IMG/VR virus record: IMGVR_UViG_3300028608_000022
Span: 1-52,065 of that record
Direction: 5' to 3' (one strand)
DNA length: 52,065 nucleotides
Origin: a virus
Positions 3,804 through 20,432 of the stretch are shown piece by piece. The notes beneath the pieces are model-generated. The model did not search any database, was not told where the DNA came from, and saw nothing but the letters and a program-made list of their open reading frames with translations. Within the stretch, counting starts at the first letter, position 1, and every line of letters begins with the position of its first letter. A program made the translations under genes and the position numbers.

Positions 3804-6662
3804 CTATTTTTTCTTTGCAGGAAATCCTGCGATCTGGTGCTCGTTGTGGAGCAGGTTTCCATCGAGCCGAACGACGCGCGGCGAATACTCCAGCGCGATG
3901 AGCGGCGTGTCTGGCGGGTTGACCTGCAACGTGAGCGAAGAGTTCCGCAGCGCCATGAAAAATGAGTCGACGTTTTGGAACCTCACCGGCTCGCCGACGC
4001 GCTGCGCGATCTGCCGGTACTTGCTGTAGAACGCATCCACGTTGATGTCCATGTGCATCTCCGGGCCGAACGCTGCGACGTCTTCGCCGTGGTTGACGCG
4101 GATAGCGCCGAGGTCGTCTCGGCTCGATTCGGTGATCATCATGCGCAAGATCTTGACCAGCTCCGGTGTGGCTTGCAGCGACGGGTAGTGCTCAGGCGAC
4201 AGTAGCGTGTTGCGCAGCGTCTCGAAGCGCTGTTCCCAGCCGCGCGCCTCGTAGTCCGCCTTCATCTGGTGGCGCATTACCATCTGCAAGAACAGCAGGC
4301 CTGCGATGGACACGCTGGCGTTGTAAACGATACGGCTGTTGCCGTTGCGGTTCAGGTGTTCCTGCGCCACGTCGTGTGAGCGCTTGATCAGCGCCATGAT
4401 CTTGTCGTCGGCCATGTGCACCGTGCCTTGCAGCAGGAGCTTACCGATCGAGGCCAGCACGTAGGGGTTCGACTTCAACGTGCTGAAGGCTTCCTCCGCG
4501 CGGCCCTTGCGGTTCGTCTTGCTGAAATGGACCGACATGACACGTTCCTGGATGGCTGTCTCCGTCTCGGCCGTCTCCGTCGAGAACATCATGGGCGTGG
4601 TCTTCGTTTCGAACACCACGTCCGACCACGAGCTGGTGGTGCTGCGAGAGTCACCACCGCCGCGCGGCGATTGGAACGCCGGCTGGTACAGCTCGTGAAT
4701 GGTCATGCGGAATTCACGCTGGAGATCGAGCGACATCAGGTGGGGCTTGAATTCATCGACCAGCACCGGGATGGTGTTGGACGCGGTGAACATCATGCGC
4801 CGCCCGTAAGCCGTGCCCACCGCAGCGTTCATCATCTTCGGCTTGGACCGGTAATAGAACATGTGGATGAGCGCGATCGCCAGGCTGGTCTTGCCGGCGC
4901 CGGATTCACCGTACAGCTGAAGCAACGGGAACATTTCCTGGTACTTCAGAAAATAGGGCTTCTGCCAGCACGCGACCAGCCAGCCCAGGGTCGCAGCGAC
5001 CGAGTAGTTGTCCAGGTTGAAATTCAGCAGCGCGTCGACCACCTCCGCAGCGTTGCCATGCGAGCTCAGGCTGGGCGCGGCCATGACGTCGCTCTGGAAG
5101 AACCCGCCTTCGCTGCCGGTGGGTGTGCGGAAACGGTAGCTGCGGCCGTCCTCTTTCGAGAAGCAGCCCGTGGGCGCGACCCAGACCAGGCGGTCCTCGC
5201 CCCCGTTCAGATCCTCGATCAGGTTGAACCCTTCCTTGGGCAGCGTGTAAACGGGCTTGTTCAGGCGGGCCTGGTTCATCAGCACCGCCATCATGCCGCC
5301 CGCCTTGGGCGAATCCAGGCGCGGCGCGATGCCGCCCTGCTTGGCGATGAACATCTTGGTCTTGTCGGCGCTCACAAAGGTGCCGGGGTCCACCATGACT
5401 TCGCCGCGGGCCTTGCCGGCCAGCTGGCTGGTCATCATGTAGCCCATGGACTGGTCGGTCGTGGCGTCCACCAGCTCGGTGACCGTCTCGCTGCCGGGGT
5501 GCCAGCTGCATTCGCGCGACGGGCCGCGCTCGGGGTGCGAGTGGTACATGCCGTTGGTCCCCAGCATCATGCCTGCGGTCATGTCGTGGTATGAGTCGGC
5601 GTCCTGGCCTTCAGACGGCGCTGCGGTGCCGCGCAAGTCATTCACACCAGAGCTGGATTGCATGATCGAGGCCATCGCAGCGGGTTCGTACCCGTAGCAG
5701 ATGTTGTCCTCGGCGTAGCGGTACATGCGGATCAGCTCTTTCTTGACCGCCAGGCCCGATGCGTGACCGTCACCGCGGTACTTTTCGATCAGACCCTTAC
5801 ACGCATCCAGGTGGGCGTCCAGATCCTTGCCGATCGAGCAGCTGAGAATGCCCAGCTGCAATGCGATCTTGTTCAGACCCACGTCGCGGCTCAGGTTCTC
5901 GCCACTCATCAGGCGCAGCACCGACTCGGGCCACTCACCGTTCAAGTTCTTGGCGAACTGGCTGTCCAGGCGCTTTTTGCGCGCCTTCATCTGCTTCTCG
6001 ACCTCGCTCTTTATCTTCGAATACTGAGCGATCAGGGACGTCGAAGCCGTTGGCGTGGCCCAGGTCGGGTACGGCTGCGGCTCGCACGTCAGCTCGACAT
6101 ACAGCTGCTCGTTCATGCCGCGCATCTGCTTGAGCGAGATCGGCACCTTGTAGCGGCCGTTCTCTCGCTGCACGTTCGGCGTGCGCCACATGCGCCCGCG
6201 CTTGGCCGAATACACGGCCATGTCCATGTCTTCGGTGTAGAGCAGGTTGGCCAGCTCTTTGTAGATGTAGGGCAGGTACGTGACCAGCTTGTCCTTGGTC
6301 GAGCTGAAGACTTCGAACGGCACCTCGACGTGGTAGCCGCGCCCGCCGGTTGCGTAGAGACGGACACAATTCAGGTCCACGTCGTGCTCTTCTTTCAACA
6401 GGTCCAGAAAGCGGTTGACCGAGGCCGCCCCCTTCATCAAGTCCTCGCAATCCCAATCCGCGTAGAAGGGGCCGCGGTACTTCACAGCCAACCACTCTTC
6501 CTTGGTCAGTTGCTCGTCTTCATCGGCCAGGCGGTCCAGATCCAGCACCGTCACATACTTGGGCTGCTTCTGTGCGCACACTTCGGCGCGGCTGTCAGCG
6601 TTGGCTCCGCGCCACCCGCCGGCCACTTCCTTCGTGTGATAGAAATAAAGGATTTCGGTCAT
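3804..6662 (-). CDS. Primase-helicase: archaeo-eukaryotic-type primase domain plus P-loop ATPase/helicase domain
   Basis: The 952-aa protein has an N-terminal AEP-like primase: residues 67-74 (YADWDCED, motif I acidic pair), 106-112 (GGRGYHV, motif II with histidine) and about 148 (DMAVYS, motif III acid). The central to C-terminal half carries a Walker A (GESGAGKTS, 585-593) and Walker B (VLVDEF, 633-638) of an SF3/D5-like or related helicase ATPase. It would lay primers and unwind the fork. The SD is poor (AAATAACA before ATG), and the gene begins 2 nt after the helicase stop, so translation is probably coupled. Assignment to a named helicase superfamily is inference; the primase motifs are the firmer part. 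Confidence 0.85.
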   Translation of the reverse strand: MTEILYFYHTKEVAGGWRGANADSRAEVCAQKQPKYVTVLDLDRLADEDEQLTKEEWLAVKYRGPFYADWDCEDLMKGAASVNRFLDLLKEEHDVDLNCVRLYATGGRGYHVEVPFEVFSSTKDKLVTYLPYIYKELANLLYTEDMDMAVYSAKRGRMWRTPNVQRENGRYKVPISLKQMRGMNEQLYVELTCEPQPYPTWATPTASTSLIAQYSKIKSEVEKQMKARKKRLDSQFAKNLNGEWPESVLRLMSGENLSRDVGLNKIALQLGILSCSIGKDLDAHLDACKGLIEKYRGDGHASGLAVKKELIRMYRYAEDNICYGYEPAAMASIMQSSSGVNDLRGTAAPSEGQDADSYHDMTAGMMLGTNGMYHSHPERGPSRECSWHPGSETVTELVDATTDQSMGYMMTSQLAGKARGEVMVDPGTFVSADKTKMFIAKQGGIAPRLDSPKAGGMMAVLMNQARLNKPVYTLPKEGFNLIEDLNGGEDRLVWVAPTGCFSKEDGRSYRFRTPTGSEGGFFQSDVMAAPSLSSHGNAAEVVDALLNFNLDNYSVAATLGWLVACWQKPYFLKYQEMFPLLQLYGESGAGKTSLAIALIHMFYYRSKPKMMNAAVGTAYGRRMMFTASNTIPVLVDEFKPHLMSLDLQREFRMTIHELYQPAFQSPRGGGDSRSTTSSWSDVVFETKTTPMMFSTETAETETAIQERVMSVHFSKTNRKGRAEEAFSTLKSNPYVLASIGKLLLQGTVHMADDKIMALIKRSHDVAQEHLNRNGNSRIVYNASVSIAGLLFLQMVMRHQMKADYEARGWEQRFETLRNTLLSPEHYPSLQATPELVKILRMMITESSRDDLGAIRVNHGEDVAAFGPEMHMDINVDAFYSKYRQIAQRVGEPVRFQNVDSFFMALRNSSLTLQVNPPDTPLIALEYSPRVVRLDGNLLHNEHQIAGFPAKKK

Positions 6663-6664: not shown

Positions 6665-8098
6665 TTATTTGCCGTAAAGGGCGTCGCGCAGACTGTTCAA
6701 CGAGGGAACCACGGTGTTGATCAGCGCGTCTTTGTTTTCAAGCTGCTTGCGCAGGTGCACCTGCACCGTGCCCAAGGCGGTAAGGATCCGAACGTCGGTC
6801 ACGAATTTCTGGCCAGGCCGCTCCAGGCGCTTGACCGCCTGCCAGAAGTCCTTGGGCAGCGTGGGGATCTCCACGAACACCATGTGGTGGCAGACGTGCT
6901 GCAAACCGTCCACGCCCACGCCCCCGGACTGAGGGTTCATGACCAGGAACTGGATGTCCGGGTCGTTGATGAAGGCTTCCTTGTTTTCCTGGATCTTGGT
7001 GCCCGAGACGTCCCCGTTGATCTGCACCGCCTTTCGACCGAGGATCTTCAGGTAGGCCATGATCGACCTCACCGACATCTTGTAGGTGGCGAAGATGATG
7101 GCCTTGGTCTTGCCCAGCTCCTGGGCATACTCGTCCAAGAATTCGAACGACTCCGGCTTCAGGCTGTTGTCCTGGCCGAAATGCGCGTAGTTCACGACGA
7201 TCTGCTGGACCGCGTGGTAAAGCCGCTGCGGGGTCGTAGCGTCGATAATTTCGCCTGACTCATAGGCCAGGAGCTGCTGGTCCACCAGCGTCTTGTAGAG
7301 CGTCTGGTGGTGCTTGCCGAGGTCGTATTCGATGGCGTCGACGTTGGCGCGCGGCATGTCCGGGTGGACTTCAGGCGTGCTGACAAACGACGAATTCAGC
7401 GCCAGCGCGTTCTTCAGAATGTGCAGGTTCTTCCACTCGGTCGGCCGGCCGTACTGATCGGACGCAGCGACGTGGACGTTTTCGAACGAGCGGAAGCTGC
7501 GGTACGTGCCGGGCGCCACCAGCTTGACGTAGGCATAGGCATCGCGCGGCGTGGCCAGCGGCGTGCCGGTCGCCGGGATGATCGCAGCGTTGTGAATCTG
7601 CTGCATCTGGAAGACGTGGATGAAGTTGCCGGACTCGTAGTTCTTGATGCAGACGGCTTCGTCGATCGTCACGTTCAGGCGCCAGCCGGTGAACTTGTCC
7701 ATCAGGTACTGGTAATCGCGCTTCAGAATCGCCACGCTCATCAGGATGTAGCGCGTGTCGCGGGTCAGCGTCACCGACTTGCGGTACTGCGGCGAACCGG
7801 CGTATATCACGTTCTTGATCCCGCAGCTAGTAAGCCACTTGGACCATTGCTTCAAAAGGATCGGTGGGCAAAGCTGTATGACCACGCCACCCAGGTTTTC
7901 ATGCCAGATGCAATTGTGCAGGGTGGTTCCAAAGGTCTTGCCAGCGCCCATGTCCCAGTAATAGCCGAACTTGTCGATCGACTCTTCCACTGCGCGGTTC
8001 ACCTCGTCTCGCTGGTAAAACAGCGGCGCGTAAGGGAACGCGTATTTCTTGCAGATTTGGCTGACGCGGTCGAGGTACATAGCGGGGCGCGCCCGCAT
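6665..8098 (-). CDS. SF2 helicase, SNF2-like
   Basis: The 477-aa protein has the ordered SF2 motifs: I (MGAGKT, 50-55), II (DEAV, 146-149), III (PATGTP, 175-180), V (GGVGVDGLQH) and VI (QAVKRLERPGQ). The spacing and the Q..R..R.GQ motif VI suit SNF2-type DNA translocases, which many phages keep next to the primase. The ATG at 8098 lies in a GC-rich hairpin (8090-8109) directly after the shared SD CAAGGAACC. An ATG at 8080 (MYLDRV) is the alternative. It may help replication initiation or fork remodelling; which one is not visible. Confidence 0.88.
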   Translation of the reverse strand: MRARPAMYLDRVSQICKKYAFPYAPLFYQRDEVNRAVEESIDKFGYYWDMGAGKTFGTTLHNCIWHENLGGVVIQLCPPILLKQWSKWLTSCGIKNVIYAGSPQYRKSVTLTRDTRYILMSVAILKRDYQYLMDKFTGWRLNVTIDEAVCIKNYESGNFIHVFQMQQIHNAAIIPATGTPLATPRDAYAYVKLVAPGTYRSFRSFENVHVAASDQYGRPTEWKNLHILKNALALNSSFVSTPEVHPDMPRANVDAIEYDLGKHHQTLYKTLVDQQLLAYESGEIIDATTPQRLYHAVQQIVVNYAHFGQDNSLKPESFEFLDEYAQELGKTKAIIFATYKMSVRSIMAYLKILGRKAVQINGDVSGTKIQENKEAFINDPDIQFLVMNPQSGGVGVDGLQHVCHHMVFVEIPTLPKDFWQAVKRLERPGQKFVTDVRILTALGTVQVHLRKQLENKDALINTVVPSLNSLRDALYGK

Positions 8099-8109: not shown

Positions 8110-8122
8110 GGTTCCTTGTGAG

Positions 8123-8614
8123 TTATTCGAGGAAAGAGGTGCGGAAGGTGACGCCGATCTCGACGCAGGACCGGGCCGCCGCTTCCGCAGCGTCCGTTGC
8201 CGCGTAGCTGTCCAGGTACGCGCGCATCGGAGCCCAGCACAGGCAGGTCCAAAGATCGGCGTACATCCGCAGTCGTTGCAGCGCCATGGCCGGGGTGTGG
8301 GTCAGGATCATTTGGCGCGTGCTGATCTCGCCGTTATCTCCGAACGGAATCATCACTTCCATCATGCCGTAGAACTGCAAGAACTTGCTGTCCGCGCTGT
8401 TCCGATGCAGCACCAGGCCGGCGTCCAGGTTCTCGACCTTCAACCCGTTCCAGGTCGCCGTCGTCGCGTCCATCAGCACCGCCAGGTTGAACACTGCCTG
8501 GTCGCTGCGCGCCTCGATCAGCTGCGGCGTGGCGCCGCGCAGCACGTCATAGGTCGATCCATGATGGGCGTTGCTTGTGATAGGGTGACCCAGGTAATTC
8601 AATATCTTTTGCAT
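8123..8614 (-). CDS. Hypothetical protein, 163 aa
   Basis: No family recognised. The start ATG (MQKILNYLGHPITSN) follows CAAGGAACCAAAA, the phage's shared SD, which rules out the longer open frame upstream. It overlaps the antirepressor-like gene by 68 nt in another frame, which is long for this genome, and precedes the helicase by 24 nt. The middle (about 80-125) reads like a mixed alpha/beta fold; the C-terminal third is Ala-rich helix. Confidence 0.75.
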   Translation of the reverse strand: MQKILNYLGHPITSNAHHGSTYDVLRGATPQLIEARSDQAVFNLAVLMDATTATWNGLKVENLDAGLVLHRNSADSKFLQFYGMMEVMIPFGDNGEISTRQMILTHTPAMALQRLRMYADLWTCLCWAPMRAYLDSYAATDAAEAAARSCVEIGVTFRTSFLE

Positions 8615-9419
8615 TTTTGGTTCCTTGAAGAATCGCCCGCTCCCAGGGGAAAATCGATGGGTGGGCGGGGATGGTGACGACGAGCGGAGCACCCTTGCGA
8701 GCATCCACAACTTTCGTCGCGGGGATCACCTTGCGCTCCAGGGCGGGGAGCTTCAGGTGATTGGCGACCGCTTCGGGTCCCGTCAACAATTCGACGTGTG
8801 CCCGGCGCATGTCGCCCAACAACTTCTCACGATAGGCTTCAGGCGAAACCTGGACGTGGCGGACGAGGCCTGGGCCTTCGTCCCAAAACGCGCGGTCGCG
8901 CACAAACAAATCCAGAACGCCGCTCACCGTGACGGTGTGGTCGATCACGTCGGCGGCCATGCGCTTGAACCCCAGGCTCAGGTCCTTGCGCATGAAGTCT
9001 GGGGACTCCATCGGTACGCATACTTCAACCAGCTTGGCGGCCTTCTCGGCGTTGACGGCGTCATCGGCCGCCTTGCGCTTGGCCATCTCAGCCACCAACC
9101 CGACCGACCCATGGCGCAGCGTTGCGCCCAGGTGGTCCTGGAAGTGGCGCACGGTGCTCTGGTCTTCGGGTTTCTTGGCCGTGACGGTGGCCAGCCATTT
9201 TTCCATGTCCTCGATCGAGGCTGCGTGAGCCGCGCGGCCGTTGAGCTTGACCGTCTCGATCGGAAACAGCTTGATGATGCTCTCGCGCGTCCTGTCCCAA
9301 CGCAGGCCCAGCGCCTCGACTACCGGCTTCAGGCAGACCCGGCCGTCCACCATCGGCACGGCCAGGCTGAGCGCCACGCCGTTGACCAAGTAGGGAAAGT
9401 TGACCGTTTCGTGGCTCAT
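8547..9419 (-). CDS. Antirepressor-like protein with P22_AR N-terminal-type domain
   Basis: Residues about 9-60 (VNGVALSLAVPMVDGRVCLKP followed by VEALGLRWDRTRESI) match the pattern of the P22 antirepressor N-terminal domain: a short beta hairpin followed by 'lkPvveaLGL.W...'. The remaining 230 residues of the 290-aa product are not recognised. In temperate phages such domains sit in proteins that antagonise repressors or bind DNA. The SD is weak, the leader carries a C(UUCG)G hairpin (9440-9457), and the 3' end overlaps the next gene by 68 nt. The antirepressor role is inference from one domain. Confidence 0.7.
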   Translation of the reverse strand: MSHETVNFPYLVNGVALSLAVPMVDGRVCLKPVVEALGLRWDRTRESIIKLFPIETVKLNGRAAHAASIEDMEKWLATVTAKKPEDQSTVRHFQDHLGATLRHGSVGLVAEMAKRKAADDAVNAEKAAKLVEVCVPMESPDFMRKDLSLGFKRMAADVIDHTVTVSGVLDLFVRDRAFWDEGPGLVRHVQVSPEAYREKLLGDMRRAHVELLTGPEAVANHLKLPALERKVIPATKVVDARKGAPLVVTIPAHPSIFPWERAILQGTKNAKDIELPGSPYHKQRPSWIDL

Positions 9420-9439
9420 ATGGGGATCAGGGATAGAAA

Positions 9440-9457
9440 CAGCAGCCGAAGCTGCTG
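9440..9457 (-). promoter_or_regulatory. UUCG-capped hairpin in the leader of the antirepressor-like gene
   Basis: On the minus strand CAGCAGC-TTCG-GCTGCTG is a 7-bp perfect stem closed by the extra-stable C(UUCG)G loop, followed by TTTCTATCC. It lies 21 nt before the ATG at 9419. It could be a weak attenuator or an mRNA-stabilising element. Confidence 0.5.
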
Positions 9458-9516
9458 GGCGGGAACGGAGCTAATGATAGCGCCAGAATCCTCGTTACGA
9501 AAGGGTTACAGCACAT

Positions 9517-9546
9517 TCGGCACGATCCTCCCGGCTATGCGATAAT
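9517..9546 (+). promoter_or_regulatory. Extended -10 promoter for a + strand small RNA
   Basis: + strand TCGGCA (9517-9522, 4 of 6 to TTGACA), an 18-nt spacer ending in TGC, and GATAAT (9541-9546, 5 of 6). The TGn before the -10 makes it an extended -10 promoter. The expected start is about 9553, exactly where the stem of the RNA below begins. All flanking genes are on the other strand. Confidence 0.6.
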
Positions 9547-9552
9547 TGCCTT

Positions 9553-9647
9553 GTCGTCACGCGGGGAAGGCTGGGGTGGTTCCTTGGGCCTTTCCTGACG
9601 ACTGGGCAAGAGACCCCCGCTGTCGAGAGGCAGCGGGGGTTTTCTTT
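9553..9647 (+). ncRNA. Putative phage small RNA with a loop complementary to the phage's shared SD element
   Basis: About 95 nt, free of any gene on this strand. GTCGTCA (9553-9559) pairs with TGACGAC (9596-9602), and after a 4-nt bulge GGGAAGGC (9564-9571) pairs with GCCTTTCC (9588-9595, one wobble). This gives a 15-bp stem with a 16-nt loop (9572-9587). The loop carries GGTGGTTCCTTGG, the reverse complement of the CAAGGAACCACC leader before several phage ATGs; with 9588 included the match to the leader at 31995-32008 is 14 of 14. A 10-nt linker leads to a 10-bp terminator. Promoter, stem, exposed loop and terminator form the classic layout of a regulatory sRNA. The function is inferred. Confidence 0.6.
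9613..9647 (+). terminator. Rho-independent terminator, + strand
   Basis: ACCCCCGCTG / CAGCGGGGGT, a 10-bp perfect stem with an 8-nt loop, followed by TTTCTTT. The T-run is only on the + strand, so it ends a rightward transcript although both neighbouring genes are leftward. It is the strongest evidence for the small RNA. Confidence 0.85.
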
Positions 9648-10293
9648 ATTGCGGCGTCTCGCCCGACGGTGCGGCGTTAAGCGCTGCCACTTGGCCCGGC
9701 GTCAGGTCACCCAGCGCGTTCTGCGCATGCTCATCGGCCAGGCGCTGCACGTCCGCCGGGTCCAGCTTCATGTTCAGGATGTCGTCCGGCATGGCCAGCA
9801 GCATCGAGATCAGCATTTCGAACGTCACGATCGTTTCGCTCGGGCTGATCTGGCCGGTGTGCACGCGCACCAGGCTCTCCAGCGCAGCGACGGTGACGTC
9901 GGCCAGGCTGCGATCCGCAGCAGCGATGCGGGGCAACCAGGCCAGCGTGGACGCTTCCAGCACCTTGGCCGGCGTGATGTCCGGGCCAGGCGGGTGCGAG
10001 GTGGCCAGCTTGGCGTTGTTGAACAGGAAATTGCGCGCGATCGTAGCGACCTTGTCGATTTCCTTTTCGAAGCTCGGGATCTGCCAGGCCACGGGCAACT
10101 GGGTCACCGGCAGAGACAGGTTGCCCTCTTCGTTCGGGTAGTGGACGCGGCCGTAAAAGACCTCGCCAGTGATGGCGTTGCCGGCGATCGTCACGCGGCC
10201 GCCGCCCATCGGGATCAGGACCAGGCCGGTGCGCTCGTCGTGCATGACCGTGAACCCGACATTGCGGGAAATCGGGGTGGCTTTTTGGGACAT
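9646..10293 (-). CDS. Hypothetical protein, 215 aa
   Basis: No family recognised. ATG after GGAGTAAGC. The N-terminal 60 residues are beta-rich and the rest is mainly helical with a Pro/Gly-rich end. The next gene upstream ends 2 nt before its start. The stop codon TAA lies within the T-run of the + strand sRNA terminator, so the two features share DNA. Confidence 0.8.
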   Translation of the reverse strand: MSQKATPISRNVGFTVMHDERTGLVLIPMGGGRVTIAGNAITGEVFYGRVHYPNEEGNLSLPVTQLPVAWQIPSFEKEIDKVATIARNFLFNNAKLATSHPPGPDITPAKVLEASTLAWLPRIAAADRSLADVTVAALESLVRVHTGQISPSETIVTFEMLISMLLAMPDDILNMKLDPADVQRLADEHAQNALGDLTPGQVAALNAAPSGETPQ

Positions 10294-10295: not shown

Positions 10296-10709
10296 TTACT
10301 CCAGGTTGTCAAAGTCGTATTCGACCAGCTCGGCGGCGCGCGGGGATACCGCTGCGACCTCCAGGAACTCGTCGAAATTGACCATCCGGGCTGGCGTTTC
10401 CAGCCCTTCGGTCTTCCATTCGTTGGGCGCCACCATGAAGGGGCGGGCAGCGTCTTTCAGGCGCAGCGGCGGCACAACGGGCGTGAACTCGATCCCGTGT
10501 GCCTCCATCAGATCGCCGGCCAGCGCGCGCAGGCCGGTGGCGTCAACATAGGTCGACACCGCCGGGCGGCCGCGGCGCCCGCCGTGGTTGGTGGCGTGGC
10601 GCAGGTAAGGCGCGTGGGTCGCAGCGATGCGGGAGCGGTATTTGCCGTAGGCATCGCGCAGCTCGCGCGCTTTGTACACATCCTCGAGGCTGTACCAGAT
10701 CGTTTCCAT
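10296..10709 (-). CDS. Hypothetical protein, 137 aa
   Basis: Unrecognised. The start overlaps the stop of the MazG-like gene (TAATG), with AAGGTG as SD. It contains a basic stretch about residue 40-50 (NHGGRRGRP), reminiscent of an AT-hook core, and an acidic C-terminus. Translation is probably coupled to the MazG-like gene. Confidence 0.78.
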   Translation of the reverse strand: METIWYSLEDVYKARELRDAYGKYRSRIAATHAPYLRHATNHGGRRGRPAVSTYVDATGLRALAGDLMEAHGIEFTPVVPPLRLKDAARPFMVAPNEWKTEGLETPARMVNFDEFLEVAAVSPRAAELVEYDFDNLE

Positions 10710-11305
10710 TACGACACCTTATCGTCCAGGCCGCCCTTGTCCGCGCGCGCCATCGCGGCCGCGTCGCTGTAGCCCTTGTCGGCGTAGCGGCTACCCGGGC
10801 CTTGCAGCTTCAGGTAGTTGTCGCGGCGCAGGTCGTCAGGCGAGTAGCCCAGCTGCGGGGCGACGTGGAATTCGATCACGCCCAGCGCCTGTTGCGTCAG
10901 GATCAGAATGTCGCTCTTGGAGTCGACCGGCTGGTTTTCGTACAGATCCACAGCGCGCCAGATGCGGCCCACCAGGTCCAGCAGCACGCCCACGCAGTCT
11001 TCCATATCCATGGTCTGGTCGGGCGAGATACCTTGGCCCTTGGTCAGGCGCGTGGCTTCGGGTTGGGCGTCCAGCGCGTTGAAGATGATGGCCGCGTACC
11101 ACATGAAATCGCCCAGTTCTTCGGGCAGGTTCTTGGCGATCTTCTCGTCCTGGTAGGTCTTGCCGTAGATGGCGACCTTTTTGAACGAGCTGGCGAACTC
11201 GCCCAGTTCGGTAAGCAGGCCCAGGCGGGCATGGCGCAGGCGCGCCGGCAGACTCATGGGCTTTTCGGTGCGAGCGGACACGCGGGTGTATTCGACCAAT
11301 TCCAT
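10709..11305 (-). CDS. MazG-like nucleotide pyrophosphohydrolase
   Basis: The 198-aa protein has the all-alpha NTP-PPase pattern: L-x-x-E-L-x-E-F (E33, E36) followed by a basic loop and P-E-E-L-G-D-F-x-W (E62, E63, D66), the metal-binding EExxE/ExxD arrangement of MazG-type enzymes. These hydrolyse (d)NTPs to monophosphates, cleaning nucleotide pools or lowering ppGpp signalling in infected cells. The ATG at 11305 follows CAAGGAACCGAT, which excludes the 13-residue upstream extension. An inverted repeat (11342-11360) lies just upstream. Confidence 0.8.
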   Translation of the reverse strand: MELVEYTRVSARTEKPMSLPARLRHARLGLLTELGEFASSFKKVAIYGKTYQDEKIAKNLPEELGDFMWYAAIIFNALDAQPEATRLTKGQGISPDQTMDMEDCVGVLLDLVGRIWRAVDLYENQPVDSKSDILILTQQALGVIEFHVAPQLGYSPDDLRRDNYLKLQGPGSRYADKGYSDAAAMARADKGGLDDKVS

Positions 11306-11341
11306 ATCGGTTCCTTGTGCGTTAAATGAATAAATAGTGTA

Positions 11342-11387: not shown

Positions 11388-11636
11388 TTACAGAGCGCGG
11401 CGCTCCAGCTCCGCGCAAACCTCGGCCTCGGTGGCGCGGGCCATGTTGAGCAGGCGCTTGGCCTGGCGCAGCGCGCTGTGCTGGTGCACCATCGAGATAG
11501 TCATCTGGCTGCGAATCATCCGCAGCATTTTGTTGGCGTCGGCGCGGCCGCTCAGGTCGCGCACGTTGGCCAGGAAACGGGTGTTGACGTCCTGCCGGTC
11601 CAGCCGGGCGACGTTGGGATCAGAAACGGGCGGCAT
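11388..11636 (-). CDS. Hypothetical protein, 82 aa
   Basis: Helical, Arg/Ala-rich protein without a recognised domain. The ATG follows GGAGTGAACAGGT inside the end of the 330-aa gene (17-nt overlap), so expression is likely coupled. It is the last gene before the inverted repeat at 11342. Confidence 0.72.
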   Translation of the reverse strand: MPPVSDPNVARLDRQDVNTRFLANVRDLSGRADANKMLRMIRSQMTISMVHQHSALRQAKRLLNMARATEAEVCAELERRAL

Positions 11637-12612
11637 ACCTGTTCACTCCATTTGTAAGTAATTGCGTCACGTCCTCGGGGACGGTGGCCGGCAGGTCGCC
11701 TTTGACCAGGCCCAGCAGCTGCGCCGTCTTCTCCAGCGCCGCGCGCTTGATGTTGTGGCACCCAATGACCAGGTCGCCGGCTTCGTTCACACGTTCAAGC
11801 TGGAAGTGCCCCACCTGGCGCGCGCCGATCAGGTCCAGCGCCGGGAATTTACCCTCCAGCGCCAGGTTCGACACCGTCCACAGCACGGGCGCCACCGCCA
11901 GCGGCACCTGGGCGCCGCGAGTCGTCTCCAGCACCCAGCCGCCCTCGGTGTGAACCGGGCGGGCGTGATCTTCAGTGCGGGGCAGCACCATGTCGCACTT
12001 GCCGCGCAGCCAACTGTCCAGGCGCTTGGCGCGGCGTTTCCCCGCACCGGTCGGGTCCGCCGGCTGGCGGGTCTTGGGCACCAACGCTGCGTGCGCCGGC
12101 AGACGGTCATTGATCTTCGCCGCGATGCCCTCGAAATCCATGGCTCCGTCGTGCGGGTTATCGAACAGACGGCGGTACTGAGTTATTTCACCGTTAAGGC
12201 TGCGGGCCAGGTTCAGCGCGCGGATGCGGGTGTTGACGCTGCACCGCGAATTGTCGAAATCAGCGATCTGCTCTTCGATCCGCTCGATGAAAGCGTTCAG
12301 GTTATCGAAGTGATGCGCTGCGGTCCAGGTCTCCCCGGCGCCCGGCAGGCTGACCACCCTGATAGCGTCCGAGAGCTCGTAGGAGGTCAAAGACAGGCGG
12401 ATCTGGCTCTGGTGGCGCGACGTTGTCTGAGACCAGTTCTTGTTCGACAAGACCCAGCGCTGAATCCGGTTGTCGAGAAAAGCCATAGGCTCTTCGTAGC
12501 TGTATATGACGCCATCGCGCACCGACACGCTACCGGCCTTCGACCAGCGCTCTCGGATGCTGCGATGGCGAATGTCTTGTACGGCCAGGTGCAGAAACTG
12601 TTCGATATTCAT
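11620..12612 (-). CDS. Hypothetical protein, 330 aa
   Basis: Unrecognised. ATG directly after CAAGACAAGGAACCACC, one of the best matches to the shared SD and to the loop of the putative sRNA (12 nt complementary). The N-terminal half is helical; the C-terminal half (about 205-290) alternates strands and helices and has GCHNIKR. At 330 aa it is one of the longer genes of the leftward accessory block. Confidence 0.82.
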   Translation of the reverse strand: MNIEQFLHLAVQDIRHRSIRERWSKAGSVSVRDGVIYSYEEPMAFLDNRIQRWVLSNKNWSQTTSRHQSQIRLSLTSYELSDAIRVVSLPGAGETWTAAHHFDNLNAFIERIEEQIADFDNSRCSVNTRIRALNLARSLNGEITQYRRLFDNPHDGAMDFEGIAAKINDRLPAHAALVPKTRQPADPTGAGKRRAKRLDSWLRGKCDMVLPRTEDHARPVHTEGGWVLETTRGAQVPLAVAPVLWTVSNLALEGKFPALDLIGARQVGHFQLERVNEAGDLVIGCHNIKRAALEKTAQLLGLVKGDLPATVPEDVTQLLTNGVNRYAARF

Positions 12613-12643
12613 GGTGGTTCCTTGTCTTGTGGGGTGTTGCGGT

Positions 12644-13982: not shown

Positions 13983-14213
13983 TCAACTCTCGGCCACGGC
14001 CGAGCTTCCCAGCATGGGGCGCGCTTCGGCTTTCTTCACGCCGTAGACCTCGTTGAACTGTGCCGTCGCCGCTTCCCAGGCTGCGCGCGCCTTCAGGAGG
14101 CTGTCCGCTGCGTTGCGGGCCTCTTCGATCGCTGCCTGGTTGCGCAGGACCGCTTGCTGGTACGCCTTCAGGGTTTCAACCTGGGTGTCCATGATCTGCT
14201 CTTTGTTCGTCAT
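13983..14213 (-). CDS. Hypothetical coiled-coil protein, 76 aa
   Basis: Almost entirely helical with a heptad-like pattern (residues about 10-52). The ATG follows CAAGACAAGGAACCATC. Palindrome site 1 lies 22 nt upstream, so this is the first gene of a cluster running to 9.6 kb. Confidence 0.75.
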   Translation of the reverse strand: MTNKEQIMDTQVETLKAYQQAVLRNQAAIEEARNAADSLLKARAAWEAATAQFNEVYGVKKAEARPMLGSSAVAES

Positions 14214-14234
14214 GATGGTTCCTTGTCTTGTTTA

Positions 14235-14252
14235 TTTCGGAATATTCCGAAA
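14235..14252. promoter_or_regulatory. Palindrome site 1 (TTCGGAATATTCCGAA family)
   Basis: 18-bp perfect palindrome TTTCGGAATATTCCGAAA between the stop at 14258 and the SD of the gene at 13983-14213. Dispersed operator-like element; see the finding on the array. Confidence 0.85.
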
Positions 14253-14257
14253 TTAAT

Positions 14258-14485
14258 TCACGGTTTGACCACAAACCACCAGCCATAGCTGGGGCCGGCG
14301 GCGGCTTCGAAAGACTTGCACCCCTCGGGCATGTGCTCGGCGAGCCACGCGAGCACCACATCCCCGGCGGCGACCGGCTTCACCGGTTCGGTGCCGAGCG
14401 GGGGGTTGCGCACGCGCACCGATTTGCCGTCAGGGCCGATGGCGGTACTGCACGAGTCGCCCAGAAGGACGCGGATGATGATCAT
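14258..14485 (-). CDS. Hypothetical protein, 75 aa
   Basis: Beta-rich start (MIIIRVLLGDSC) and a C-terminal GPSYGWWFVVKP. Overlaps the upstream stop as ATGA. Last gene before palindrome site 1. No family recognised. Confidence 0.75.
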   Translation of the reverse strand: MIIIRVLLGDSCSTAIGPDGKSVRVRNPPLGTEPVKPVAAGDVVLAWLAEHMPEGCKSFEAAAGPSYGWWFVVKP

Positions 14486-14754
14486 GCTTCAGCTTCCTCG
14501 ATCGCGTCTTGTGCGGCCTTGATCGACTCCAATGCCTCGTCGAGCGCTTCCACAGCCTCGTCCAGCTTGTCGACGGCCTCTTGCATCTTTTCGCCCTTTT
14601 CCCCTTCCTGCTGGCTCTCGGGCATGTTGTCCAGCGCATCCTGCTCATCCTGGCGGGGAGCGTCCAGGTCGTCCTTCACGCTTTCCAGCTGCGTGTGCAG
14701 GTTGTCCAGGCTCTCACGCAGCGTTGCCAGGGTCTTGCGGCGTTCCTTGTTCAT
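14482..14754 (-). CDS. Acidic coiled-coil protein, 90 aa
   Basis: Strongly acidic and helical throughout, with heptad-like repeats (LDNLHTQLESVKDDLD ... VDKLDEAVEALDEALESI). This could be a small oligomerising or DNA-mimic type protein; the charge is the only hint. SD AAAGGAAAG. Its start overlaps the end of the 80-aa gene by 41 nt. Confidence 0.75.
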   Translation of the reverse strand: MNKERRKTLATLRESLDNLHTQLESVKDDLDAPRQDEQDALDNMPESQQEGEKGEKMQEAVDKLDEAVEALDEALESIKAAQDAIEEAEA

Positions 14755-14956
14755 TTTCTTTCCTTTTGGCCAGAAGCTCGGCCAGTTGAAAACCGATCCA
14801 GGCGTTGTCGGTGTCAGCGTCCATGTAGTGGTGCAGCTGACCGTTTATTTCCATCGCGGCGAAGTGGAATTTCGACCGCTTCGGGTTGCTGTTCCAGTGC
14901 TCGGCCATGCCGGCCTCGAAGCGCTGCCGCTGCGCCAAGCGTTCCTCGGGTGTCAT
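14714..14956 (-). CDS. Hypothetical protein, 80 aa
   Basis: The ATG at 14956 (MTPEERLAQRQRFEAG) has GAGGTAGAC upstream; the frame's upstream extension crosses the terminator at 14968-14987 and is not used. Contains HFAAMEINGQLHHYMD and a hydrophobic helix; unrecognised. Confidence 0.72.
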   Translation of the reverse strand: MTPEERLAQRQRFEAGMAEHWNSNPKRSKFHFAAMEINGQLHHYMDADTDNAWIGFQLAELLAKRKENEQGTPQDPGNAA

Positions 14957-14967
14957 GTCTACCTCGT

Positions 14968-14987
14968 AAAAATCCCGCCGAAGCGGG
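14968..14987 (-). terminator. Short rho-independent terminator with UUCG loop
   Basis: On the minus strand CCCGC-TTCG-GCGGG followed by ATTTTTAC, just after the stop at 14991. The stem is only 5 bp but capped by C(UUCG)G; probably a partial terminator within the cluster. Confidence 0.6.
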
Positions 14988-14990
14988 GGT

Positions 14991-15458
14991 TCATTTCTTG
15001 ACCCATTCGCCCCAGGTCTGGGTATCGGGGTCCCAAGCACGCTTCCAGTGAGTCTCGACACCTTCGGCGTTCACTTCGGTGACCTCCTGGCCGTCGTGGG
15101 TGAAGACGCGGTCTTTGAAGACCCCAACGCCGTACTTTGGCCAGTTGGCCAGGCGCCGCTCCAGGTCCGAGAAATCCAGCTCGTCGGGCTGCGCCGGCGG
15201 CAGCGGGTAACTGCTGAGTGGGCGCCACGGCCGCAGAAACTGCCACTCCGGCGTAGAAACTGAAAATCGCCCGGTAGGCGATTTTGTGGGCTGGCTGAAG
15301 GGCTCCGGCGTCGGCCCGAACAGGCTCCGGTAGTAGCCAAATCGACGCCCGGCGCGCCAGGCTTTATTGCGGCGCCGCTCGCGCTTGTTCCACTGCGTGT
15401 TGTAGCCGGTGTAACTGCGCGGCTTGGCGTTTTTCTTCAGGCTTCGAACTTTCATCAT
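14991..15458 (-). CDS. Hypothetical protein, 155 aa, basic N-terminus
   Basis: The first about 45 residues are very rich in Lys/Arg (MMKVRSLKKNAKPRS ... KRERRRNKAWRAGRRFG), followed by a Pro-rich middle and an acidic/aromatic end. The basic arm suggests nucleic-acid contact. ATGATGA junction with the upstream stop; SD AAGGTGGC. Confidence 0.75.
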   Translation of the reverse strand: MMKVRSLKKNAKPRSYTGYNTQWNKRERRRNKAWRAGRRFGYYRSLFGPTPEPFSQPTKSPTGRFSVSTPEWQFLRPWRPLSSYPLPPAQPDELDFSDLERRLANWPKYGVGVFKDRVFTHDGQEVTEVNAEGVETHWKRAWDPDTQTWGEWVKK

Positions 15459-15643
15459 GCCACCTTGATCGGAATGAATTTCTGCTCGTCCGGGTAGACG
15501 CGCGGGTTACCTTCCCACTGTGCCCACAGCGAACCCGTGGCCGCCGCCCCAGGGGTGACGGTAGCCAGCGCTGTGATTCTGACGTGGGCGCGGTGCTGGC
15601 GCAACGCCCACAGGACACTGCACATGGCGATGTAGCGTTCCAT
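15455..15643 (-). CDS. Hypothetical protein, 62 aa
   Basis: ATG with GAGGACTGACC, two bases after the previous stop. Hydrophobic start (MERYIAMCSVLWALRQH) then polar; no clear membrane segment. Unrecognised. Confidence 0.65.
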   Translation of the reverse strand: MERYIAMCSVLWALRQHRAHVRITALATVTPGAAATGSLWAQWEGNPRVYPDEQKFIPIKVA

Positions 15644-15645
15644 GG

Positions 15646-15924
15646 TCAGTCCTCGCCCTGCTGCGCGTGCCACTCTCTGGCCTTCGCCTCAAAGCGGGCC
15701 AGGATCTTTCGCAAGGCCTTTTCAAACTTGACCGCAGCCTGGTAGTCGTGAAACTCGGCCCACTCGTCCCAGACATCGTAATTGCTGGAGCCGCTGGCCA
15801 CAGCCGGGCCGCGAATGCCTTGCACCTCGATCTCGAATTCGCTCATGACCGCAGCGTCTCGCCCCAGCATGTCAGCCAGCTCAGGACTCCCGTGCGCGCT
15901 GGCGTGGTAGATGGTGGTGATCAT
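15646..15924 (-). CDS. Hypothetical protein, 92 aa
   Basis: Preferred start MITTIYHASAH at 15924: very strong SD (GGGAGGTGA) and ATGA overlap with the stop of the 320-aa gene. The C-terminal half is a long basic/aromatic helix (YQAAVKFEKALRKILARFEAKA). Unrecognised. Confidence 0.78.
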   Translation of the reverse strand: MITTIYHASAHGSPELADMLGRDAAVMSEFEIEVQGIRGPAVASGSSNYDVWDEWAEFHDYQAAVKFEKALRKILARFEAKAREWHAQQGED

Positions 15925-16883
15925 TGCGTCACCTCCCATTCAAACCCCGCGGCTTCCATGTCCTCCTTCATCGCCGCGAGCAGCGCCGGCAGGCGGGCCA
16001 TCAGAATCGCGGTCAGCTCGGCCTTGGGCAAGCACAGCTGCTCGTCGGTGGCATCGGGCCAGACGGCGCTGGACCGCGCTTTGTCCAGCTCCCGGGCCTT
16101 GCCTTCGGAGAACAGGGTGGGGACCTTCTCAAAGCGGATGAAGCCCGCGCCCTTCTTGCGCAGACTCTCGACGTGCAGGTTCAGCGAGTCCGCCCAGGCT
16201 TGTGCCGTCACCGAGTCATTGAAGGGGCAGAGTGCCCAGTTCGCTTCGTAGCCTTCCAGCGTGTAATTGTCGCTGTACTTGTAGGTATCGTTGCCTGTGT
16301 GGGAAGCGGCGACCACCTTGAACTCCGACCAGTGCTTGTTGGCCTTCGGCGTGGACACCAGGAAGTCGATTCGCGCCTGCATCCACTCCAGAAACCGGCT
16401 GCTCTTGATCTTGGTCGGGAACGGGCTGTTGCCAACGTACGCAACATCGTCCCAGGCCCAAGGCTCGCCCTGGCGCTTGCCGTGGTGATCGAGATCCCCT
16501 GCAAAATACGTCACGTTGCCGGGGTAGTGCATCGGACCATCGGTCGAGCACAAGTGCCATTTGGCCAGATGCGCCAGCTCCGGGAAGTGCTTAGCTATGG
16601 CCTTGTGGATTATCCCGCCGCTTTCGCTGTCTTCAGGGTGCCTCGGGTTCCAGATTTCGGCCGTCATGCTGAACTCGTTGTGGCCGTTGCCCATCGAGTC
16701 GTCAAAGCGCAAATCGACGACGATCCTCTTCGTCACGCCGTCTTCATTGAACTGGCGGCTGGCCTTGAACTTCTGGTGCATGAACGTGAGCTTGCCGCTC
16801 TTCTCGTTCCGGCTCGACGGATCTTTCCGGGCGATGCGGGTCAGCTGGCCAGTAACGCCGTGCATGTTGTGTGTGGTTTCCAT
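15921..16883 (-). CDS. Hypothetical protein, 320 aa
   Basis: First gene after palindrome site 2; ATG follows AAGACAAGGAACCAAG. Mixed alpha/beta, with many aromatic residues (WHLCSTDGPMHYPGNVTYFAGDLDHH about 110-135) and an acidic helical end. No domain could be named. Its size and position at the head of a seven-gene cluster suggest a main product of that unit. Confidence 0.82.
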   Translation of the reverse strand: METTHNMHGVTGQLTRIARKDPSSRNEKSGKLTFMHQKFKASRQFNEDGVTKRIVVDLRFDDSMGNGHNEFSMTAEIWNPRHPEDSESGGIIHKAIAKHFPELAHLAKWHLCSTDGPMHYPGNVTYFAGDLDHHGKRQGEPWAWDDVAYVGNSPFPTKIKSSRFLEWMQARIDFLVSTPKANKHWSEFKVVAASHTGNDTYKYSDNYTLEGYEANWALCPFNDSVTAQAWADSLNLHVESLRKKGAGFIRFEKVPTLFSEGKARELDKARSSAVWPDATDEQLCLPKAELTAILMARLPALLAAMKEDMEAAGFEWEVTQ

Positions 16884-16905
16884 CTTGGTTCCTTGTCTTA
16901 TGGGT

Positions 16906-16921
16906 TTCGGAATATTCCGAA
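16906..16921. promoter_or_regulatory. Palindrome site 2 (TTCGGAATATTCCGAA)
   Basis: Perfect 16-bp copy immediately after the stop at 16922 and 22 nt before the ATG at 16883. Confidence 0.85.
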
Positions 16922-17113
16922 TTAAGCGGGTTGTTCGGAGGGTTGCTTGACGCGCACGCCGAAGATCACAGCAACGCGCGTGCCGTCAGTGCACGGGATG
17001 GCCTGCACGCGGTCGATCTTGAGCATCTGGCCGTTGTGGTACAGCATGGCGTCGGTGTCGCCGTGGGCGCCTTGTTGCACGCCCAACTCTTCCAGCAGTT
17101 CAGATATCAGCAT
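16922..17113 (-). CDS. Hypothetical protein, 63 aa
   Basis: Small beta-rich protein; its ATG lies at the end of the upstream frame (shared base at 17113). The stop codon abuts palindrome site 2. Unrecognised. Confidence 0.75.
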   Translation of the reverse strand: MLISELLEELGVQQGAHGDTDAMLYHNGQMLKIDRVQAIPCTDGTRVAVIFGVRVKQPSEQPA

Positions 17114-17493
17114 CAGTGCACCGTGAAGGGTTCAGAGGTAAAGGTGAGGGTGACCAGCAGCGTCTCAGGCTTGGTCTCTTCGGTGTGGCCGAGGAACTTC
17201 AATTCGCCGCGGCCCTCGCGCGCTTTCTGGATGACCAGCGCCAGCAGCTCCGGCGTCATCTGCACCGGACGGGGCTTAGCTGAGATCCCGCGAATGTTCA
17301 CCTCGCCGCCCCAGCTCGTGATGGCCAGGCGTTCGGCCTTGGTCAACGCAGCGTCGATGGCCATCAGCAGCCGCTGCTCGGCCGCTCGTGCGAAATCGTC
17401 GGGCTCCTGCATCACGTACACCGCAGCGAGCACCGTCAAAGTCAGCCCGTCATAGGCAGAGTCGACCAGGCTGATTTCGATTTCTCTATTCAC
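17113..17493 (-). CDS. Hypothetical protein, 126 aa, GTG start
   Basis: GTG start with GGAGTGAAAT. Helix-rich centre (FARAAEQRLLMAIDAALTKAERLA) flanked by strands. No family recognised. Confidence 0.75.
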   Translation of the reverse strand: MNREIEISLVDSAYDGLTLTVLAAVYVMQEPDDFARAAEQRLLMAIDAALTKAERLAITSWGGEVNIRGISAKPRPVQMTPELLALVIQKAREGRGELKFLGHTEETKPETLLVTLTFTSEPFTVH

Positions 17494-17496
17494 ATT

Positions 17497-17724
17497 TCAC
17501 TCCAGGCGCTCTACGCGCACAAGGACCTTGGTCTCCAGGCCGTGCACCGCGACCCAGGAGGTGGTCTTGAAAACACGATCACGAAGATCGCGATGGCGCC
17601 GGCTGACCGGCGGGTTAAGTTGGCGCATCACATAACTGGCGCGATCCGCTGCGGTCTCAACGTAGGTGTGGTCACCTTTGTTCAGTGCGCGCAAGATCGA
17701 CGCAAAGTCGGTTCTACCAGTCAT
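17497..17724 (-). CDS. Hypothetical protein, 75 aa
   Basis: The ATG at 17724 (MTGRTDFASILR) overlaps the end of the upstream gene by 11 nt; an upstream extension would overlap it far more. Basic, with RRHRDLRDRVFKTTSWVAV. Unrecognised. Confidence 0.72.
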   Translation of the reverse strand: MTGRTDFASILRALNKGDHTYVETAADRASYVMRQLNPPVSRRHRDLRDRVFKTTSWVAVHGLETKVLVRVERLE

Positions 17725-17989
17725 AGACTTCGTACCCCAAAACAATCGGACCATCGGCGTCGATGCGCAGATACTGCGCGCCTTCCAACGCCACCTCATC
17801 GGCCAGCTTGGCCAGCCAGGCCGGGCGCCCTTCACGGGCGTCCAGCGCCAGGATCCAGCCCTCGCGGTAGGCCGCGCCGTTGGCGTCCAAATAACGCTTC
17901 GCTACCGGGTCGACCACCGAACGGTCACGCTTGTCATGCGGTACATGACTGCTCGAAATGGTGACCATGACAGATTTTTCTAGCGCCAT
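17714..17989 (-). CDS. Hypothetical protein, 91 aa
   Basis: The SD AAAGGAGAGCGTC begins in the last bases of palindrome site 3, so a protein bound at the palindrome could also hide the DNA of this gene's leader. Alpha/beta protein, no family recognised. Confidence 0.78.
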   Translation of the reverse strand: MALEKSVMVTISSSHVPHDKRDRSVVDPVAKRYLDANGAAYREGWILALDAREGRPAWLAKLADEVALEGAQYLRIDADGPIVLGYEVYDW

Positions 17990-18000
17990 GACGCTCTCCT

Positions 18001-18016
18001 TTCGGAATATTCCGAA
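18001..18016. promoter_or_regulatory. Palindrome site 3 (TTCGGAATATTCCGAA)
   Basis: Perfect copy directly after the stop at 18017 and 11 nt before the ATG at 17989, touching its SD. Confidence 0.85.
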
Positions 18017-18619
18017 TTAGATCCAATGGGGGAGGCTGTTGGACTGCGCAGCGACCCAGCCCTCGCTGCGCTCATCCGAAATCGTCGGCCGAACCCCCAC
18101 GCACAGGCCGATAAAGTCCTGGCGAACGTGGGACTTCAACAGGTAGACGTGGCCCATGACGTTCTCGTAGAAGTGCATGGTGACGCTGGGTTCGCGCACC
18201 CCCAGTTCTTTGCAGCCGCGGCTGAAATCGTACAGGTGGTGCGGCTTCAAACTGGTGTACTCAGGCTGAATGAGGTTCTGACGGGGCAGCACCCGGCGCC
18301 AGTCCGGGAACACCCCCTCAACCGGTGTGAACTCCACGTCATCCAGCTTGGCCTTGGTCGGCGATTCGATGGTCAGATGGAGAATGGTCGCTTTCTTGGC
18401 GCACGCCTGCTTGACGACCGCGGTGGGGATAACGATCTTGGCGTCATCGCTGGTGACGACCAGCCCTTGGCCAACGTGCATGCGGTTGCCGTCGGTGCCG
18501 ACCAGCCAGGTCCGGCCACCTTGGACTTCAACCAGCACGCCGTTCAGGTAGTAGCGGATGTCCTTCACAGCTGCTGCGAGGGCTACCGCTTTCAGCATGG
18601 CTTGTTCGATCTGGATCAT
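18017..18619 (-). CDS. Short sliding-clamp-like protein (DnaN-like), 200 aa
   Basis: The start at 18619 follows CAAGACAAGGAACCAATC. The opening (AMLKAVALAAAVKDIRYYLNGVLVEV) and WLVGTDGNRMHVGQG resemble a DnaN clamp repeat, in which 'atDg.Rl' is a conserved turn; later DDVEFTPVEGVFPDWRRVLP also resembles a clamp-repeat ending ('..egkFPdy.rviP'). At 200 aa it has less than two thirds of a bacterial beta clamp (about 366 aa), so it may be a reduced two-domain ring former or a clamp mimic. A role as processivity factor for the phage polymerase is inference. Confidence 0.6.
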   Translation of the reverse strand: MIQIEQAMLKAVALAAAVKDIRYYLNGVLVEVQGGRTWLVGTDGNRMHVGQGLVVTSDDAKIVIPTAVVKQACAKKATILHLTIESPTKAKLDDVEFTPVEGVFPDWRRVLPRQNLIQPEYTSLKPHHLYDFSRGCKELGVREPSVTMHFYENVMGHVYLLKSHVRQDFIGLCVGVRPTISDERSEGWVAAQSNSLPHWI

Positions 18620-18648
18620 GATTGGTTCCTTGTCTTGTGGGGTGATGC

Positions 18649-18891
18649 TTACGGGCGGTTGGGGAGATAGACACACGAGGGCGGCGACCTGTCGTAATTG
18701 ACGCGGTAGCAGGCCACGTTCAGGTCGCGGTCGACGGTGCGACAGATGCCGTCTCCGATGAGCGCGCAGCTGGGGGTCGTCGTCACTGGCGCAGGGGTCT
18801 CCTGGACCTCTCTGCCTAAGCCGTAGCCAAAGGCGAACGCTGCGCACCCAAACATAGCTGCGACGACGACCCAGGTCAGGATTTTGCTCAT
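18649..18891 (-). CDS. Small exported or membrane-anchored Cys-containing protein, 80 aa
   Basis: MSKILTWVVVAAMFGCAAFAFGYGLG is a signal anchor; FGC is a weak lipobox-like site. The rest (about 27-80) would face the periplasm and holds four more Cys (TPSCALIGDGIC ... VACY ... PPSCVY), suggesting disulphides. Possible superinfection-exclusion or envelope protein; not recognised. SD GAGGCAATC. Confidence 0.7.
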   Translation of the reverse strand: MSKILTWVVVAAMFGCAAFAFGYGLGREVQETPAPVTTTPSCALIGDGICRTVDRDLNVACYRVNYDRSPPSCVYLPNRP

Positions 18892-18900
18892 GATTGCCTC

Positions 18901-19173
18901 TTAGGTTGCGGCGGGTTTCATGGCCTGGGCTCCAATTCGACTCACGATGCTGTCGATCAACCCCAGGTCGTAGGTAGTCATGTTTTCGATGCCGTTGGAG
19001 ACGGCTACGCTCAGACGCTCTTGCACTAGCGCCTGCTGGCGCAAGCCGTGGTTCATCGCAGAGTAGTGATGCTTCTGCATCAACTCCAGAATGTCGTCCA
19101 GGTCCTTCGGGCGCAGTCGGCCCAGGTACGCATACAGGATGCGGGCGTGGTCTTCAGTGGTTATGGCTCGCAT
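18901..19173 (-). CDS. Hypothetical protein, 90 aa
   Basis: ATG at 19173 with AAAGGAGCC; 20-nt overlap with the upstream gene. Helical protein (DHARILYAYLGRLRPKDLDDILELM). Unrecognised. Confidence 0.72.
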   Translation of the reverse strand: MRAITTEDHARILYAYLGRLRPKDLDDILELMQKHHYSAMNHGLRQQALVQERLSVAVSNGIENMTTYDLGLIDSIVSRIGAQAMKPAAT

Positions 19174-19471
19174 TGCGCGGCTCCTTTCCAAATGCTTTGA
19201 CGTGGCCCAGGTAGCGCCAATCGTCGGTGGGGTTGACCTGGCTCGGAGTGCTCGGGTCTTCGCCGTTCCAAACCGAACCATCGTTGTAGTTGGCGACGAT
19301 CGCCCAGTGCTTGCCGCTACCCCGGCAAACCAGCCACCAGACATAGCCCTTGCCGGGCTGGCAGCGCGCAAACTCACGCGCCTGGGTGAACGTCATTTCG
19401 TGCTGCGGCAGGGACAGGAACGTCGTCCCCGCCTTGATGCCGCCGAATCGGAATTGGTGTCTGCGTGACAT
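19154..19471 (-). CDS. Hypothetical protein, 105 aa
   Basis: Aromatic-rich, beta-type protein (GYVWWLVCRGSGKHWAIVANY). ATG with GGAG at a normal distance. Unrecognised. Confidence 0.72.
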   Translation of the reverse strand: MSRRHQFRFGGIKAGTTFLSLPQHEMTFTQAREFARCQPGKGYVWWLVCRGSGKHWAIVANYNDGSVWNGEDPSTPSQVNPTDDWRYLGHVKAFGKEPRNASHNH

Positions 19472-19474
19472 GGC

Positions 19475-20028: not shown

Positions 20029-20030
20029 GA

Positions 20031-20255: not shown

Positions 20256-20257
20256 GA

Positions 20258-20431: not shown

Positions 20432-20432
20432 G

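Follow-up and report, generated by a model that had tools for sequence, protein, structure and literature searches.

Within the window, meaning the whole 52,065-bp stretch of virus DNA analysed here (record IMGVR_UViG_3300028608_000022), a gap of 226 nt at 9420-9645 lies between two leftward genes, 8547-9419 and 9646-10293. On its + strand the gap carries a promoter candidate, a hairpin and a terminator in series, and no long gene-like reading frame accounts for this element. The features at the locus are as follows.

9517 to 9546, + strand: sigma70-type promoter candidate with extended -10, TCGGCA-N18-GATAAT with TG before the -10
9553 to 9647, + strand: proposed sRNA of ~95 nt, consisting of hairpin, short linker and intrinsic terminator (MFE -57.3 kcal/mol)
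9553 to 9602, + strand: hairpin 1, 16 bp (7 + 9, with a 4-nt bulge) and a 14-nt apical region, predicted by folding
9575 to 9588, + strand: apical antisense sequence GGTGGTTCCTTGGG, complement of CCCAAGGAACCACC, matching the leader at 31995-32008
9610 to 9643, + strand: intrinsic terminator hairpin of 15 pairs, 9 of them G-C, with a T-rich tail, adjoining the stop codon of gene 9646-10293 (- strand)
8547 to 9419, - strand: gene adjoining the sRNA, with weak similarity to the P22 antirepressor N-terminus (P22_AR_N, E 5e-4, below the curated cutoff)

Terminase, portal and helicase assign the phage to a varied set of tailed phages of ~75-90 kb, among them Vibrio phage SHOU24, Pseudomonas phages Lana and UAntarctica, Achromobacter phage JWF, Xylophilus phage Lumi and Caulobacter phage Seuss. 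These named members are about 25-31% identical to the window phage across the three proteins, and terminase identity to IMG/VR contigs reaches 38-42%. Searches with the nearby DNA, the neighbour gene and the helicase alone returned no close relatives, and annotated phages gave no near DNA match to the sRNA locus. From about 1 to 31 kb the genes run leftward and include replication and nucleotide functions (primase, helicase, exonuclease, dNMP kinase and MazG); rightward genes follow this block, and from 42 kb on they include those for packaging and the head. No tRNA or tmRNA was found, and GC skew gives no origin signal at the sRNA locus.

The promoter candidate scores 9 of 12, a moderate match, and lies directly 5' of the hairpin; it would put the RNA 5' end at the foot of the stem, about 9551-9553. 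If transcription starts near 9553, the first base of the RNA is the first base of the stem. Promoter-like sites over the scanned 20 kb occur at chance level (4 versus 3.4 expected), and the promoter-like and terminator-like classes in the scanned regions as a whole stand at chance or only moderately above it; the terminator at 9610-9643 is the strongest in the scan. The predicted folding energy of the two-hairpin unit is -66.9 kcal/mol (z -8.2), compared with only -48.0 for the complement strand; hairpin 1 alone gives -36.5 kcal/mol on the + strand versus -25.0 on the - strand. The + strand RNA folds better because its G-U pairs turn into C-A mismatches in the complement. Three weak inner pairs are possible in the apical region, so that the tip may be partly closed. 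Judged by its sequence, the locus would be an sRNA gene with its own promoter and its own intrinsic terminator. The initial annotation had placed an extended -10 promoter and a terminator on the + strand of a gap between leftward genes, all of which we recover at the positions given above; its 15-bp stem and 16-nt loop are close to the hairpin described here without being exact. Rfam yielded no family match for the locus at gathering threshold, and its weak matches (rnk leader, rdlD, anti-hemB) fall far under the cutoffs and were treated as chance.

The tip of hairpin 1 carries the antisense motif GGUUCCUUG. As the initial annotation proposed, the sequence at 9575-9588 is the exact complement of the 14 nt directly upstream of the ATG at 32009, and the annotation's count of at least 12 more starts sharing 8-12 nt is borne out by 12 further starts with matches of that length, the one before the helicase gene having a long spacing. 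The predicted target leaders are these.

31995 to 32008, + strand: best target, CCCAAGGAACCACC, ATG at 32009, 14 nt perfect, net about -20 kcal/mol
12613 to 12624, - strand: CAAGGAACCACC (12 nt), gene 11620-12612
34432 to 34442, + strand: CCAAGGAACCA (11 nt), gene 34447-35343
36593 to 36602, + strand: CAAGGAACCA, gene 36608-37306
1669 to 1676, - strand: CAAGGAAC, deoxynucleoside monophosphate kinase gene 1077-1664
8110 to 8118, - strand: CAAGGAACC, helicase gene 6665-8098, spacing long at about 14 nt, a weaker case
8618 to 8627, - strand: CAAGGAACCA, gene 8123-8611
11309 to 11317, - strand: CAAGGAACC, MazG-like gene 10709-11305
14216 to 14225, - strand: CAAGGAACCA, gene 13983-14213
16886 to 16895, - strand: CAAGGAACCA, gene 15921-16883
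18623 to 18632, - strand: CAAGGAACCA, gene 18017-18619, with RusA-like and processivity-factor-like matches
20939 to 20948, - strand: CAAGGAACCA, gene 20433-20936
28519 to 28528, - strand: CAAGGAACCA, gene 27971-28513

Beyond the three longest matches (14 nt before 32009, 12 nt before 12612 and 11 nt before 34447), the remaining targets match over 8-10 nt. Net pairing energies for all 13 are predicted at -8 to -20 kcal/mol after a tip-opening cost of 5.5 kcal/mol; duplex energy alone discriminates poorly, shuffled G-rich loops pairing with many starts nearly as well. The octamer CAAGGAAC occurs in 16 copies versus 1.37 expected: 13 before gene starts, 2 in coding sequence (2765 and 14742) and 1 as the complement of the hairpin tip. 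The 13 leader copies share the consensus CAAGGAACCA and precede 10 leftward and 3 rightward genes. The octamer matched by the tip is the one most enriched among the leaders of the genome. Among 281 strong hairpins on both strands, the sRNA hairpin alone has a tip antisense to the leaders of at least three genes, and the complementarity is confined to that tip: along the sRNA, 9577-9586 is the sole stretch with matches to many leaders (10-13 each). A copy of the octamer at the sRNA is unsurprising, since chance copies exist outside leaders; its position in the tip is surprising.

Gene starts were taken from simple gene calls, with gene 8123-8611 added by hand, to give 88 in total. The SD element stands at 13 of them, mostly before genes with their own leader, and the earlier description of it as phage-wide was too broad. 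In 10 of the 13 element genes the gap upstream measures at least 20 nt, compared with 19 of the 75 others (p 0.0006). Genes carrying the element are thus genes with a leader of their own, and tightly packed genes often come after them. The element is absent from all 12 genes beyond 41.6 kb, structural genes included, a difference that is not significant (p 0.2). Functions recognised among the targets are dNMP kinase, MazG-like, RusA-like or processivity-factor-like, and helicase.

A second repeated sequence occurs in the genome. The 16-bp perfect palindrome TTCGGAATATTCCGAA has 11 exact copies in window 14236-30369, where 0.1 would be expected even allowing up to 3 mismatches; they lie at 14236, 16906, 18001, 20957, 23232, 24681, 26046, 27264, 29050, 29893 and 30354. 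The palindrome sits in intergenic leaders of leftward genes and the adjoining region, with 3 copies directly upstream of CAAGGAACC leaders, and is likely an operator or another repeated regulatory site.

Gene 8547-9419, next to the sRNA, has no SD. A 29-codon frame on the - strand (window 9427-9516) ends 7 nt before the ATG of this gene, an arrangement in which translational coupling is possible. The P22_AR_N match was not reproduced with the ortholog of the gene in the nearest relative, and a search of solved structures with 8547-9419 found none. From its 5' end at about 9553, the sRNA lies ~130 nt upstream of the ATG at 9419. It therefore does not lie across an antirepressor RBS in the manner of P22 sar, and the assignment of the gene as an antirepressor is itself weak. 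The placement of a candidate sRNA beside an antirepressor-like gene nonetheless offers, by analogy with P22 sar and P1 c4, a lead.

The nearest relative is a 40-kb contig (L211), whose helicase and primase are 57% and 53% identical to those of the window phage and whose ortholog of 8547-9419 is 35% identical (E 2e-40). In the gap before that ortholog, the antisense strand carries a terminator adjoining the upstream stop codon, and a strongly structured antisense RNA candidate lies at 9105-9215 on the - strand (z -6.2). No clear promoter was found for it, and it shares part of its length with an antisense frame of 139 codons. The candidate comprises a hairpin over the ortholog's start region, a second hairpin and the terminator, and is arranged like a cis-antisense RNA on that gene. 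L211 has no CAAGGAACC leaders and no widely shared SD, and its candidate RNA matches no shared SD. The candidate is, in this single sister phage, a positional counterpart of the sRNA without detectable sequence similarity or shared SD.

These observations bear on the leading alternative, which we regard as possible rather than probable: that the RNA works, like P22 sar or lambda OOP, as a cis-antisense RNA, here of the leftward operon, mainly by pairing perfectly with the leftward mRNA just upstream of 8547-9419 and the replication genes and leading to cleavage or a block, with the other SD matches secondary or accidental. The antisense candidate with a terminator in the same gap of L211, lacking any SD match in trans, speaks for it, and the weak P22_AR_N match of the neighbour gene points the same way, given that sar and c4 both control antirepressor genes (PMC5320573 and PMC12197685). 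Yet the RBS of 8547-9419 stays uncovered, and the identity of the tip as the complement of the most enriched leader element is left unexplained. The position of the locus is kept once, in L211, and the match between loop and regulon was seen nowhere else among the relatives searched, none of which has CAAGGAACC leaders. This single case would be consistent with an older antisense RNA that acquired, in the window lineage, a loop matched to the leader.

It is unlikely that the - strand CAAGGAACCACC at the locus is instead the relic leader of a lost leftward gene, with the hairpin a mere stabilising or terminating structure. The element does have the orientation of the 10 of 13 leader copies that belong to leftward genes, and chance copies outside leaders exist, the sites at 2765, 14742 and 48421 likewise matching at least 13 leaders. 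However, the opposite-strand CAAGGAACC at the sRNA has no start codon in range and so is not an ordinary RBS, its flanks are not leader-like, and the copy coincides precisely with the tip of a hairpin whose fold is better as + strand RNA and which has a predicted promoter and terminator of its own. Quite improbable is an action mainly on host mRNAs with AAGGA SDs, or on the ribosome as an anti-SD mimic, that reshapes host translation and hits phage leaders also or secondarily: the tip contains UUCCUU, which resembles the core of the 16S anti-SD, and might pair with many SDs of the AAGGA type, and phage trans-acting sRNAs with host targets exist (PreS and DicF, PMC12197685), but the match extends past AAGGA (C before, ACCA after) in a way typical of the window phage's leaders.

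Other members of the group use different leaders, ACTTTTGGAGATTGAAATG-like about 17 times in G001, AAGGAGAACTGAGATG in G009 and CCTAAGGAG in G029. These three genomes have repeated SD leaders without a convincing matched sRNA, so a repeated leader does not need one. Intergenic antisense copies of enriched leader octamers in other group genomes and large contigs revealed no hairpin-plus-terminator counterpart, and a scan of G026, G027 and G029 gave no convincing antisense-loop candidate. Two cases are suggestive without being convincing. In G009 (L123), a perfect 6-bp hairpin at 37409-37428 between two genes, with no clear promoter or terminator, has an 8-nt loop AGTTCTCC antisense to that phage's SD element GGAGAACT, the element itself lying on the other strand. 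In G024 (L187), a 12-bp gene-end terminator at about 2438-2470 has a loop CCTAGTCCT antisense to the AGGACTA leaders of that genome. An antisense terminator in L212 resembles the end of an ordinary gene. The pattern GGGGTGGTTCCTTGGGCC recurs in one other viral contig (L155) in a context that is not shared, with about one chance match expected on a rough estimate; there, at about 5492-5523, a perfect 13-bp inverted repeat, GGCCCAAGGAACC-GGGGT-GGTTCCTTGGGCC, has 18 nt in common with the sRNA tip region, probably by chance. The shared leader AAGACAAGGAACCA followed by ATG was found in 16 contigs at one copy each and was taken as chance.

Two further observations concern the group at large. G001 (L103/L104) carries, at about 13.5-29 kb, leader palindromes AACTAGACGTCTAGTT (core in more than 20 copies) and GTTACTAGTAAC beside its own SD element TTTTGGAGATTG, and repeated palindrome-plus-SD leaders seem to recur in the phage group with different sequences. 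Around 38356 on the - strand of G002 (L107), two long tandem hairpins are followed by an 11-bp terminator, in a region with no open frames on that strand; they are another candidate phage RNA.

Phage RNAs that occlude ribosome binding are known. The c4 RNA of P1 and P7 is a short phage RNA with complementary sequences in hairpin loops, one of which partly covers the RBS of a phage gene (PMC5320573), much as the loop at 9575-9588 is complementary to the phage RBS at 31995-32008. Whereas RNase P releases c4 from a longer transcript, and c4 forms three stem-loops, carries a second specificity loop and acts on one operon, the candidate sRNA has a predicted promoter and terminator of its own, one antisense loop and about 13 starts in trans. 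The Rfam C4 family gave no match at gathering threshold, nor any up to E 10 in 9400-9760. According to the available text of PMC12197685, P22 sar is a 68/69-nt phage RNA that blocks translation initiation of the antirepressor ant; it has a single target, whereas the candidate sRNA matches scattered leaders and leaves the RBS of its neighbour gene uncovered. Lambda OOP is another short RNA, 77 nt long, that runs antisense to an operon of a phage (PMC12197685); it targets cII in cis via RNase III and has no loop matched to a shared SD.

A further parallel in mechanism is bacterial. The NfeR1 or alpha-r14 'cuckoo' sRNAs of alphaproteobacteria have anti-SD hairpin loops with many predicted mRNA targets (PMC10746234). 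Like them, the candidate carries an anti-SD sequence in a partly unpaired hairpin tip, complementary here to 13 starts over 8-14 nt. NfeR1 family members, however, carry CCUCCUCCC in each of three hairpins and match the general SD; the candidate is phage-encoded, has a single antisense hairpin with a different motif in its tip, and fits an SD variant characteristic of some of the phage's own genes. VpdS and PreS are phage-encoded, trans-acting and Hfq-dependent sRNAs; the available text of PMC12197685 describes them mainly through effects on host RNAs, reports that VpdS affects host and phage mRNA levels, and describes for neither a single loop matched to a phage leader repeat. Within its incomplete coverage, our literature search found no phage sRNA in which a single loop fits a leader repeat of the same genome. 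The initial annotation's view that no phage regulator of this kind had been described was too strong, since c4 and sar block an RBS; what differs is one loop set against many starts in trans. The novelty is thus a combination of known principles, the RBS-blocking phage RNA and the multi-target anti-SD loop.

A phage-encoded, trans-acting, SD-blocking sRNA is in our judgement the best explanation of the locus, one that we hold with middling confidence. An sRNA whose tip is matched to the phage SD, as the initial annotation had it, remains the best reading of the anatomy, and L211 has an antisense RNA candidate in the orthologous gap; expression and function of the sRNA we infer. Under this explanation the promoter would be used and the RNA would accumulate, the gap giving rise to an independently promoted and terminated sRNA of ~95 nt, antisense to the leftward operon, whose 5' hairpin tip is complementary to the Shine-Dalgarno element. 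The tip would pair in trans, over 8-14 nt, at the starts of about 13 phage genes, and pairing would cover the AAGGA core and block binding of the 30S ribosome. Several target starts head tightly packed gene clusters, so that early or middle genes may be turned down as a group. Readthrough mRNA from the leftward genes would include a perfect complement to the sRNA and might titrate it during early infection. A fuller scenario, which we consider doubtful, is that the loop co-evolved with a duplicated SD leader and serves as a global switch of translation for a regulon of phage genes scattered over the genome; leftward mRNA would titrate the sRNA, the switch would close as leftward transcription falls, and the RNA would derive from an antisense RNA located at an antirepressor-like gene.

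Transcription factors are the usual explanation for temporal control in phages. If the trans-acting, SD-blocking sRNA is real, the phage would possess a compact post-transcriptional regulon that genes join by gaining the leader and leave by losing it. This would also supply one reason why some phages have repeated, extended SD leaders beyond what 16S pairing needs. The candidate in the orthologous gap of L211 marks the locus as one worth checking across the group of ~80-kb phages.
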